Positions 10,454 through 14,330 of a DNA stretch of 34,005 nucleotides are shown piece after piece; within the stretch, counting starts at the first letter, position 1; each line of letters opens with the position of its first letter. The notes below the pieces were generated by a model that worked only from the letters and a program-made list of their open reading frames with translations, did no database searches and was not told where the DNA came from. Location: positions 10,994 through 44,998 of the forward strand of contig JAHEAR010000028.1 in the NCBI GenBank assembly GCA_024642665.1, given 5' to 3'. This DNA comes from Bacteroidota bacterium (GTDB lineage: Bacteria; Bacteroidota; Bacteroidia; Chitinophagales; Saprospiraceae). Position numbers and translations under genes: made by a program.

Positions 10454-10478
10454 AAAGCAATTATTGATGAATTGCTTT
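10454..10478 (-). terminator. hairpin formed by the last codons of the protease gene
   Basis: AAAGCAATT (10454-10462) and AATTGCTTT (10470-10478) form a nine-base-pair perfect stem over a seven-base loop that contains most of the stop region (stop at 10461-10463). It may protect the mRNA 3' end or assist the terminator 15 bases further on. Confidence 0.5.
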
Positions 10479-13400
10479 TAAGACCGTTCGTGATTGTTTA
10501 TCCTGAATAACAACTAAAATGAGACCTTGCGGAAGCGTGCCACTGTCGAACATCAAAGAAGTTTGTCCGGTTTGGAAATCGCGTTCTTCCTTCCTTAGCA
10601 GACGTCCCTGAACGTCCATGATCGATACGATAGCAGTTCCATTTAATAGGGGCTCGCCATAGATCGAAAACGAGTGATTAAAAGGACTTGGTCTGATCTC
10701 CCAACCATATTCATTTGCATTCGGGTCCCGGGTACCGGTGATTACAATATTTACCCAAATAGAAGCTGTGTCAAAACCACATGGGTTGTATACTATTAAT
10801 GAGATTTGATAATGTCCTGAGACATTGTAGGTCGCTGTTGGATTCAGGCTGGTGTCTGTTCTGCCATCCCCAAAGGACCAGCGTAAACTATCGAAGTCTG
10901 TCCCTTGATATTCAAGTGAAATGACATTCTCATTTTGCTCATGGAAAAAGTCAGCATCCGGTGTTCCTCCCACCTGAATTAATCCATCCAGCAGTAGTGC
11001 GTCAGAACCTTCAGCATTGGTAGCCAATAGCGATACAGAATAGACTCCGGGAGTCGTATATGTAATGACAGGATTTTGTTCGGTAGAAGTTTCTGGCGTT
11101 CCTCCTTCAAACATCCACTCCCATTCCGTAGGATTGTTTTGTGATTGATCAAAAAAGGAAACGGAAAATGGAGCGCAGCCTGTATGTGCACTATAGCTGA
11201 AGAATGCATTCGGTACAGTAGACAGAACAATTTCAACTTCAAATGTATCATGACCACAGGCATTGGTCGCGATCAACATGACGTTATACGTTCCAAATTC
11301 CGAATATTCATGAACAGGATCTGTCTCCGTTGACATACCTCCATCGCCAAATATCCACTGATAGCTATTTGCACCTGAACTTTCATTATGGTAGGTTACG
11401 GTGGTGCCATTCGTTGATAAAAAGAAATCTGCATCCGGTACATCGCCAATCGTTATAAAATTATTGGTGGTTGCCGTATCCGAACCGGCCGCTGAGTAGG
11501 CAATTAAAGTCACATTGAAAGTGCCGGGATTAACATAAGAAACCACCGGATTAGCAGCCGTCGAGGTAGCCGGCGTTCCTCCGGGAAATGACCATAAAAA
11601 TGAAGTGGCGTTGGAGCTACTTTGATTTGTAAAGGTAACCGTTACCGGAACGCAGTCCCCTGAATGCTGGAATGAATATCCTGCATGGGGAGGCGTGGCG
11701 ATATTGACCGTATGGGTACTTGTATCATTGCCACAGAAACCTTCAGATATCAACTTGACGGTGTATAGTCCATCAGATAGATACGTATGGACAGGGTTGG
11801 TTTCTGTACTTGTAAATGAATCGCCAAAATCCCAGAAAGAACTGGTTGCGTTGAATGATAAATTGGTAAAAGTTACTTCAAGTCCATTAGTAGCGGAACT
11901 AAATTCACTATTCGTTGGGAATTCAACTTCAATATAGTCTGAAAGCAAAATCATTTCACTTCCGGTACTATTAGAAACGGTAAGTTGTACATCGTACAGT
12001 CCCGGTGTATTATAAGTAATGATCGGGTTGGGTACATTACTGGAAGCAGGGGTGCCACCTTCAAAAACCCAGGCATAGGATGTTGGTGATCCGCCCGACA
12101 TATCTGTGAACTGTACAACGAGTGGTGCACAACCGTATTGGGTACTGGCTTCAAAGGAAGGCGATGGGGCCCCGGTAAGTGTCACGTTTAGTTGTAGTGT
12201 ATTTGATCCGCACTCATTGGTCACCGTTAGAAAGACCTGATAGGTTCCTCCTGATGCATAGACATGCACCGGGTTTTGTGCAGAGCTGAAACTATTATCT
12301 CCAAAGTCCCATGCATAGGTGTCACCGGTGCTTCCGGTAGAGTTAAATGTTACCTGCAAACCATTTATGGTATAGTTGAATTCAGCATTAGGTTGTGCTA
12401 ATACCGTGATATAATTATTCAATGTGTAAATGTCATCACCGGCATCATTAGTAGCCACCAGCGTAACGCTATAAGTGCCAGGTGTTTCATAAAGCACTAA
12501 TGGTTCAAAGTTTGTTGATGTAGCAGGGGATCCACCGGGAAAAGACCAGTTAAAATACTCTGCATTTGATGATGAGAGATTATAAAACTGAACTTCAATA
12601 GGTGAACAACCTTCAGTGATGTCAGAGGAGAAAATGGCAAAAGGAAGGGTGATGATTTCTATTTGTATTGTATAAACATCAGTCCCGCATGAATTGGTAG
12701 CGTATAATGTAACGGTATAGAAACCATCTTCATTATATTCATGCAGTGGGTTTGTTTCAGTGGAACTTCCACCATCCCCAAAGTCCCAACTATAGCTATC
12801 CGCATTAAAACTATTGTTTTGAAAATCGACTTCAAAATCATTGATGGAATAGCTGAAGTCAGCGAGAGGAAGTTCACCAACGACGATATAATTTGTTCTT
12901 GTAAGCGTATTAGAACCTACAGCATTAGTCACCTGTAAGGTTACATCAAATTGGCCTGCTGTATTATAGGTGACTGTAGGGTTTTGATTCGTGCTCGTAG
13001 AAGGGTTTCCGCCTTCAAATGTCCACAACCAGGATGTTGGATCGTTAGCACTCTGATCATCAAAGAATACAATTAAGGGCGTGCAACCTTCCGTTGGATC
13101 CCCATCAAAATCGGCAACGGGTGGCTCGGGTATACCACAAGGACCAAGGCAATTAATCTGATTGATATAGTTGTTGATACTGCTGATGGAAGCCCCGGAC
13201 CAGTTATTGGTATTGTTGACCGACGGAGCCATAATAAAGCCGGAATTTGGCGCATCATGATTGGCACTAAAGTTATGGCCCATTTCATGCGCTTGCAGTA
13301 CTCTCAGGAGTGCTGAATTAGAGGTAAAATCTTCCAATACATGATATCTGAAATTCGTACATATGGCACTTAGCCAGGCTACTCCGATGACATCCCCTGT

Positions 13401-14330
13401 AAAATTTCGAGCGCTCCAAAACGCGCCTACATCATGCGTATTAGAAAATCCGCTTGGCCCCCAATCCGTAAAATCATCCAACATAGCATAGATATCATTA
13501 CCATCATACCATGGGTCATTGCTTGGGCTGGTCGCTACATAAATTTCAACTACACTGAATTCCAAATCGACATTAAATTCAAAGTCATAATTCGTTTCCA
13601 CGTTATTGATCACTGAAAGATTGTGATCCTCTACATCATCAACACTGCCATATTCATCAAACATTCGATAGTCATCAGCGATGGCAATTTCCAGTTCTTT
13701 GCAAACGCGGCTACCTTGTCCCTCGGCAGCTTCATGCGGATCATCAGGTCCCTCGTCATAGGTGGTCCCAATACTTGTCCCGCAAGCATCCTCAGAAAGT
13801 CTCTTTAAATTGTCGCTTCCTTTATAGATGACAAATTGATTTCTTGGCGCATTTGGAATAATATTTCGAACCATCTCGATATAGATCTCATCTTTTTCCT
13901 GCTCAATGAATGCATTGAAAAAATTGTCGTCAGCGGTGATACGCACCTTATGGGCTCCTGTTAACGTATATCCTGCGTAGGTTTTGTTTGGAGAGCGAGG
14001 CAATTCATAATCACCCTCCGGTCCCCAGGCTCTGAGTTTGTAGTGAGGAGCTCTGATATCTCTGGCGGTTAGACTAAAGTCATATTTTTTATTGCCTACC
14101 TCAAGGTGAAGTTCCGAAAAATGATCCGTGGATTTTAATAGGTTGTTTACAGTTTCTGTGTTAAGCGAAGCCACTGTAAAAGCACTAAAATACTGTTGTA
14201 AAATCTCGGTTTGGGCATCCGTAGCGCGTAGGGTTTTAAACCGAATGGTTTCCTGTCCTTGTAGGTTTGAAACAAGGAAAAAAATAAGCGCACATAGCAT
14301 GCTCGGGGTATAAATAAGCTTTTTGTTCAT
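10461..14330 (-). CDS. secreted metzincin protease with ten PKD domains and T9SS sorting domain
   Basis: 1289 residues. It has a signal peptide (about 1-26), a pro-region (about 27-200) and a reprolysin-like zinc protease domain (about 205-395) with HEMGHNFSANHD (348-359; zinc ligands H348, H352, H358; catalytic E349) and a Met-turn at FIMAP (M367). Ten PKD domains (about 403-1198) follow, then a type IX sorting domain (about 1209-1289) of the form IRPSPF...GRLL...LPQGLILVVIQD. The family glycine after the zinc motif (HExxHxxGxxH) is serine here. The PKD domains alternate between two types. The protein is probably exported through the outer membrane and attached or released to degrade external protein. 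It is a single gene between a terminator and a 184-base divergent spacer. Confidence 0.93.
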   Translation of the reverse strand: MNKKLIYTPSMLCALIFFLVSNLQGQETIRFKTLRATDAQTEILQQYFSAFTVASLNTETVNNLLKSTDHFSELHLEVGNKKYDFSLTARDIRAPHYKLRAWGPEGDYELPRSPNKTYAGYTLTGAHKVRITADDNFFNAFIEQEKDEIYIEMVRNIIPNAPRNQFVIYKGSDNLKRLSEDACGTSIGTTYDEGPDDPHEAAEGQGSRVCKELEIAIADDYRMFDEYGSVDDVEDHNLSVINNVETNYDFEFNVDLEFSVVEIYVATSPSNDPWYDGNDIYAMLDDFTDWGPSGFSNTHDVGAFWSARNFTGDVIGVAWLSAICTNFRYHVLEDFTSNSALLRVLQAHEMGHNFSANHDAPNSGFIMAPSVNNTNNWSGASISSINNYINQINCLGPCGIPEPPVADFDGDPTEGCTPLIVFFDDQSANDPTSWLWTFEGGNPSTSTNQNPTVTYNTAGQFDVTLQVTNAVGSNTLTRTNYIVVGELPLADFSYSINDFEVDFQNNSFNADSYSWDFGDGGSSTETNPLHEYNEDGFYTVTLYATNSCGTDVYTIQIEIITLPFAIFSSDITEGCSPIEVQFYNLSSSNAEYFNWSFPGGSPATSTNFEPLVLYETPGTYSVTLVATNDAGDDIYTLNNYITVLAQPNAEFNYTINGLQVTFNSTGSTGDTYAWDFGDNSFSSAQNPVHVYASGGTYQVFLTVTNECGSNTLQLNVTLTGAPSPSFEASTQYGCAPLVVQFTDMSGGSPTSYAWVFEGGTPASSNVPNPIITYNTPGLYDVQLTVSNSTGSEMILLSDYIEVEFPTNSEFSSATNGLEVTFTNLSFNATSSFWDFGDSFTSTETNPVHTYLSDGLYTVKLISEGFCGNDTSTHTVNIATPPHAGYSFQHSGDCVPVTVTFTNQSSSNATSFLWSFPGGTPATSTAANPVVSYVNPGTFNVTLIAYSAAGSDTATTNNFITIGDVPDADFFLSTNGTTVTYHNESSGANSYQWIFGDGGMSTETDPVHEYSEFGTYNVMLIATNACGHDTFEVEIVLSTVPNAFFSYSAHTGCAPFSVSFFDQSQNNPTEWEWMFEGGTPETSTEQNPVITYTTPGVYSVSLLATNAEGSDALLLDGLIQVGGTPDADFFHEQNENVISLEYQGTDFDSLRWSFGDGRTDTSLNPTATYNVSGHYQISLIVYNPCGFDTASIWVNIVITGTRDPNANEYGWEIRPSPFNHSFSIYGEPLLNGTAIVSIMDVQGRLLRKEERDFQTGQTSLMFDSGTLPQGLILVVIQDKQSRTVLKAIHQ
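10737..13124 (-). repeat. five tandem 477-base (159-residue) A/B PKD super-repeats
   Basis: PKD domains 1, 3, 5, 7 and 9 are type A: an early Cys followed by one residue and Pro, and a W-x-F-[PE]-GG-x-P core. Domains 2, 4, 6, 8 and 10 are type B: a WDFGDG-like core and a late CG. Type A cysteines are C416, C575, C734, C893 and C1052. Type B cysteines are C548, C707, C866, C1025 and C1184. Every A-to-B spacing is 132 residues, every B-to-next-A spacing is 27, and the period is exactly 159, with no net length change across five copies. Confidence 0.9.

Follow-up and report, generated by a model that had tools for sequence, protein, structure and literature searches.

A secreted Saprospiraceae metalloprotease with a stalk of five PKD domain pairs, each probably clamped by a disulfide

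The minus-strand ORF at positions 10461..14330 of the window, the whole stretch of 34,005 nucleotides that was analysed, codes for a 1289-residue secreted M12B-type metalloprotease with a stalk of ten PKD domains and a putative type IX secretion tail. The protein is very probably a zinc protease whose catalytic head is held off the cell by five PKD didomains, each made of a first (A) and a second (B) domain clamped together by a disulfide. The early Cys of A, in the AB turn at the lower pole of the domain, would bond across the A-B interface to the late Cys of B, in the FG turn at its upper pole, and the junctions between successive pairs would carry no disulfide. Formation of the bond would stiffen the pair, and five rigid didomains in series would act as a spacer holding the protease head away from the cell surface, to which the polypeptide is presumably attached. 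An array growing or shrinking by whole pairs would keep every clamp closed.

Domains are coded E when they have the early Cys only, L when they have the late Cys only, X when they have both and o when they have neither. The window array, (E-L) five times, would be the alternating version of a wider Bacteroidota PKD arrangement, where each early Cys has its partner in the late Cys of the following domain. In continuous arrays of the type E-X-X-...-L, the first domain would contribute an early Cys only, the middle ones both and the last one a late Cys only.

Domain organisation of the protein

The leader and propeptide occupy residues 1 to ~205 (13716..14330, minus strand, like all the segments below), of which residues 1-25 appear by eye to be a putative signal peptide. 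They are followed by the M12B reprolysin-like catalytic domain (residues 210-398; 13137..13703), which bears HEMGHNFSANHD at residue 348 and cysteines 210, 324, 394 and 398. It matches Pfam Reprolysin_5 with an E-value of 2.5e-17 and 64.2 bits (cut-off 27), its structural matches include acutolysin A and adamalysin II, and its zinc motif HExxHxxxxxH reads HEMGHNFSANH. The three His of this motif and C210, C324, C394 and C398 are present in 25/25 rows of an alignment of 24 distinct proteins, the window protein entering twice. By analogy with the M12B family, from which their roles and pairings are taken, these four cysteines most likely serve the protease. C183, found within DACGTS of the propeptide, is also kept in 25/25 rows and is a candidate cysteine switch.

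The stalk is matched by Pfam PKD_4 over ten stretches (E 4e-109, 357.3 bits, cut-off 27). Pair 1 covers residues 401-559 (12654..13130), with the early Cys 416 in A1 and the late Cys 548 in B1. It is followed without interruption by pair 2 (residues 560-718; 12177..12653; Cys 575 and 707), pair 3 (residues 719-877; 11700..12176; Cys 734 and 866), pair 4 (residues 878-1036; 11223..11699; Cys 893 and 1025) and pair 5 (residues 1037-1195; 10746..11222; Cys 1052 and 1184). Residues 1214-1285 (10476..10691) are a putative sorting domain for type IX secretion, a weak match to Por_Secre_tail that lies at the expected carboxyl-terminal place but falls short of the 27-bit cut-off (21.7 bits, E 2.5e-4).

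Periodicity of the PKD array

The cysteines of the ORF are residues 13, 183, 210, 324, 394, 398, 416, 548, 575, 707, 734, 866, 893, 1025, 1052 and 1184. From 416 onward they are separated by alternating steps of 132 and 27, ending with 132, which gives the period of 159 residues reported in an earlier note made from the sequence. That note described five exact super-repeats; the length and the cysteine spacing of the copies are indeed identical, but their sequences are only 31-52% identical (32-52% between A domains, 31-52% between B domains), which indicates that the array is old. Its periodicity is far beyond chance. Ungapped self-identity of the protein is 0.38-0.43 at lags of 159, 318 and 477 residues, compared with 0.15 at the next best lag, and the self-comparison of the DNA at a lag of 477 bases, proposed in the note, gives 0.47 versus 0.255 on average (sd 0.020) for lags from 60 to 1499. 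The PKD array is not among the repeats reported by Tandem Repeats Finder run on the window.

The two subtypes are readily told apart. Subtype A has a longer AB loop, in which the Cys is followed by x-Pro, and a FEGG/FPGG motif. Subtype B has a tight turn where A has its longer loop, the motif FGD and a late Cys that precedes a Gly. The array reads ELELELELEL and its five early and five late cysteines are each matched when the early Cys of one domain is assigned to the late Cys of the next.

The pair as unit of duplication in relatives

The full protein was searched against 150 genomes of the taxonomic family of the window and a match was found in 150/150, many of the listed matches spanning PKD domains only; at least 29 new loci are among the matches listed. 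The family set analysed here consists of 30 scanned arrays, 29 from relatives and one from the window protein itself (L001). All 30 follow the alternation E-L-E-L with few deviations apart from ends clipped by locus boundaries. In L098 the single "o" domain results from a profile match that stops just before the Cys, which is present, and in L112 the single X domain carries VCNALGC, two neighbouring cysteines that provide an extra late Cys. L117 and L118 have six pairs followed by a final Cys-free domain. The number of detected domains spans 6 to 14 in the 13 complete proteins and is even (6, 8, 10 or 14) in 11 of them, window included, L117 and L118 being the exceptions.

Adjacent pairs of L116, L115 and L094 reach 99.6, 96 and 95.2% DNA identity, respectively, and 96-100% protein identity; judging from these sequences, they are recent duplications of a single pair. 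Together with the alternation kept by relatives, this bears out the proposal that the unit of duplication is the pair and not the single PKD domain. The three cases also point to ongoing change of array length in this protease family. In the window protein, each pair is most similar to the same-numbered pair of a relative from the same genus (66-80% identity) and shares at most 47% with the other pairs of its own stalk, showing that its pairs are old. The note suggested looking in homologues for the A/B order together with the cysteine spacing; the order is kept, and 159 is the commonest period but not a fixed one (80/158 steps, range 155-169 in the 30 family proteins, window included). If the disulfide reading is right, a change by a single domain would orphan thiols, and the array would therefore change by pairs.

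Co-occurrence of cysteines at domain junctions

Each junction was scored for two rules, one matching the early Cys of domain i to the late Cys of domain i+1 and the other matching the late Cys of domain i to the early Cys of domain i+1. Counting was restricted to domains aligned across profile columns 13-72 and to junctions whose gap is at most 16 residues. In addition to the family set, a peptide-pattern set was formed by the best 80 among 188 loci that peptide patterns of the window protein retrieved; removal of similar proteins left 79 proteins with 535 junctions, excluding the window and the loci L002-L010 of its own genome. The phylum set is an independent draw by Pfam match from 296 genomes of the phylum. 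Its 50 loci, the 30 best matches plus 20 stretches picked before their cysteines were seen, yielded 31 proteins and 78 junctions.

The early-late rule disagrees with 5 of the 535 peptide-pattern junctions and the late-early rule with 56 (agreement at 530 and 479; sign test p 1.7e-12). For the 78 phylum junctions, disagreements number 0 and 13 (agreement at 78 and 65; p 2.4e-4). Taken individually, peptide-pattern proteins are better described by the early-late rule in 47 cases and by the late-early rule in one, with 28 ties. When similar proteins are kept (1100 junctions), the former disagrees at 7/700, 1/291 and 0/109 junctions in the three sets and the latter at 75, 3 and 17, some phylum junctions being doubled in this count because L124 lies inside L152 and L126 inside L153.

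In the family set both rules fit, as expected from strict alternation (1 versus 3 disagreements at 277 junctions with similar proteins removed; p 0.62), and it is the array ends that decide. Family arrays start with E in 21/21 cases and end with L in 15/17, the other two ending with o. Peptide-pattern arrays, similar proteins removed, start with X (36), o (9), E (4) or L (1) in the 50 cases counted, and end with X (34), L (26) or o (7), never with E, in 67. For an X at an array end, the partner Cys would have to lie outside the detected domains. A suitably spaced Cys is found there downstream in 25/36 cases (0.37 expected by chance), which is suggestive, and upstream in 18/39 (chance 0.33), a weak indication. 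Mixed arrays, including many of the phylum set, hold closed segments of the types EL, EXL and EXXL among Cys-free domains. E-X-L segments beside Cys-free PKD domains are also seen in L061 and L053, from MAGs of Ignavibacteriales and Desulfobacterales that lie outside Bacteroidota according to their record titles, with the patterns ELoooooEXXLoEXL and Eo(45)oooooEXXXLE(45)Lo.

Position of the cysteines in the fold

In Ig-like sandwiches the AB and FG turns sit at opposite ends. Couplings were computed from 777 distinct neighbouring domain pairs of peptide-pattern proteins, window protein left out; with ~548 effective sequences many couplings are weak and only those named here are used. Within the domain, F7-N24 and A5-S26 are antiparallel contacts around an AB turn whose centre is the early Cys (column 15); couplings of T63 with D71/T72 centre on columns 67-68, so that the FG turn adjoins the late Cys (column 70). 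The strands of a predicted model of one pair agree: early Cys 16 ends strand 14-16, ahead of strand 19-25, and late Cys 148 is located between strands 137-146 and 149-158. Sequence couplings and predicted strands hence support a location of the two cysteines at opposite poles, early at the lower one and late at the upper one. In an end-to-end string, this topology makes each early Cys face the late Cys of the domain that follows; in the window protein the two are 132 residues apart. A bond between early and late Cys of the same domain was rejected, as the sites are at opposite poles and share a domain in 1/345 full family domains.

The strongest coupling between domains is precisely early(i)-late(i+1), and a further one, V79(i)-G69(i+1), likewise connects a lower pole with the FG turn of the following domain. 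The rest of the top five inter-domain couplings, C15-C15, D66-D66, C70-C15 and G56-G56, reflect at least partly array type as well as contact.

The model of a single pair has a pLDDT of 98.2 and a pTM of 0.82, and that of six domains a pLDDT of 95.7 and a pTM of 0.64; the alignments behind both held relatives with conserved cysteines, which means that the models are not independent of the cysteine signal. The six-domain model superimposes on entry 9flw of the grappling hook protein GhpA over 454 residues at 7.5 A, and on seven GhpA entries in all, with 300-454 residues aligned at 7.4-9.2 A; other Ig and fibronectin strings give similar results. The pair model overlays two successive GhpA domains (153 residues, 4.1 A) and equally well the unrelated fibronectin tandem 1qg3 (153 residues, 3.4 A). 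The overlay thus speaks for an end-to-end string and says nothing specific on disulfides.

Linker lengths were compared as an indication of a flexible hinge between pairs and gave no consistent sign across the three sets: the medians of unclamped versus clamped linkers are 9 versus 11 in the family set, 12 versus 9 in peptide-pattern arrays and identical in the phylum sample. Successive pairs may be joined flexibly.

Alternative readings

The earlier note proposed that each late Cys of a B domain forms a disulfide with the early Cys that lies 27 residues further on in the following A domain, bridging neighbouring pairs, with the first A Cys held by a protease cysteine (C394 or C398) and the last B Cys lacking a partner. 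We consider this arrangement probably wrong and give it very little credence. In its favour is the constant 27-residue step, which has a simple explanation: the step comprises the G strand of one domain, the A strand of the next and the short linker that joins them. Across the 79 non-redundant peptide-pattern arrays, too, the distance from a late to the next early Cys is nearly constant, at 23-33 with a median of 26. Short and constant spacing of cysteines in a sequence is no evidence of bonding, and a tempting inference is here corrected. Topology alone is compatible with the bridge, as a fold-back of B and the next A would join the two poles, and the C70(i)-C15(i+1) coupling is also high. 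The six-domain model, however, overlays end-to-end strings and not hairpins, meaning that the necessary fold-back is not predicted; in an extended chain the two cysteines would be ~60 A apart, as estimated from strand lengths. Bridging also predicts late-only starts and early-only ends, against 21/21 family starts with E and no peptide-pattern end with E, disagrees with 56/535 and 13/78 junctions where the early-late rule disagrees with 5 and 0, and leaves C416 and C1184 unpaired. With bonds from early(i) to late(i+1), all ten stalk cysteines pair within the five pairs: C416 has no need of C394 or C398 and C1184 is matched inside pair 5.

The cysteines might be unbonded in the mature protein, as reduced thiols or as metal or lipid sites, their co-occurrence being a trace of subtype history. 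A and B differ at many residues and the cysteines could be passengers of the duplicated pair, but the rule holds at 78/78 phylum junctions, many of them in mixed arrays of varied layout, and an array that breaks it has a second Cys near column 61, as if thiols need partners, although this is a single array. We find this explanation unlikely, if less so than the bridge between pairs. A different question is whether the main function of the PKD array is to bind or loosen the substrate and not to act as a spacer. In bacterial collagenases and related proteases the PKD domains have been described as interacting with the substrate, and the best single-domain structural matches include PKD domains of collagenases. 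A length varying from 6 to 14 domains is what a spacer would show, though binding arrays can vary too. Such a primary role in substrate handling is a minority reading, of appreciable weight, and is compatible with the A-B disulfides that we favour.

Arrays departing from the rule

In some of the five peptide-pattern mismatches, inspection by eye reveals a Cys slightly beyond the limits of the profile match or an additional one close by; L024 has no obvious replacement Cys. The own-genome set (L002-L010) fits neither rule, with 13 mismatches for early(i)-late(i+1) and 14 for late(i)-early(i+1) at 16 junctions, or 7 and 8 at 10 junctions once the repeat is removed. It is dominated by a single array that enters the set twice, as L003 and L004, whose nine domains all have a late Cys without an early one and which breaks both rules at 13/13 counted junctions (7 when counted once). 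This array may use another cysteine scheme. A Cys near column 61 of the same domain accompanies 13/17 late-Cys junctions lacking the upstream early Cys, compared with 16/824 having it; all 13 come from the L003/L004 array and the link is a lead, not a rule. The L003 ORF (118-2775, minus strand, contig C38 of the same genome) has nine PKD domains, the first eight being similar copies with a period of 84. Each of these eight has four cysteines separated by steps of 58, 9, 5 and 12, a scheme unlike that of the window protein.

Known systems and implications

The component parts of the protein belong to known families; the proposed string of clamped PKD pairs and a candidate general rule for reading cysteine patterns appear to be new. 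The M12B catalytic domain with its HExxHxxxxxH motif is shared with acutolysin A and adamalysin II. Snake venom and ADAM relatives carry other carboxyl-terminal domains, whereas in the window protein the protease is followed by the PKD stalk and the putative type IX tail. Association of a protease with PKD domains is found also in clostridial ColG and ColH and in Vibrio PrtV and Epp, and the PKD1 domains of these two Vibrio proteins are structural matches of domain B, at 1.2 A for PrtV and 1.1 A for Epp. Those enzymes belong to different catalytic families and have few PKD domains.

Among solved structures, GhpA, grappling hook protein A from Aureispira sp. CCB-QB1, comes closest to the entire stalk as judged from the predicted model; its entries (9flp, 9flw, 9fly and others) take Foldseek ranks 1-3 for the six-domain model. 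GhpA is likewise a giant string of Ig-like domains, aligned over most of that model. Visual inspection of part of its sequence shows that most consecutive domains have both an early Cys and a late GC, as in the continuous version of the arrangement. It differs from the window protein by its size (5898 residues) and by the absence of alternation in that part. No description of inter-domain disulfides in PKD arrays was found in the literature searched, which covers few of the subscription journals.

We lean, with less assurance than for the window protein itself, towards a general reading in which the cysteines of Bacteroidota PKD and Ig strings form a code that marks the clamped junctions. The mechanics of a chain could then be read from it as a continuous ladder, as clamped pairs or as isolated clamps among free domains, and duplication of closed units would leave no orphan thiol. 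If true, cysteine patterns would predict locked domain junctions in many sparsely annotated surface proteins of Bacteroidota, the change of the window-protein array by pairs would be explained, and the existing GhpA structures could be used to test the rule.

Other features of the window

Eight of the nine other ORFs scanned match Pfam families, mostly of housekeeping functions (MutS2-like, SMC, topoisomerase, SUI1 and others), and one has no match. Just past the first ORF (149-2530), positions 2664-2744 hold a tandem repeat of the 7-base unit TGCCCCA, with 11.6 copies and 91% matches.
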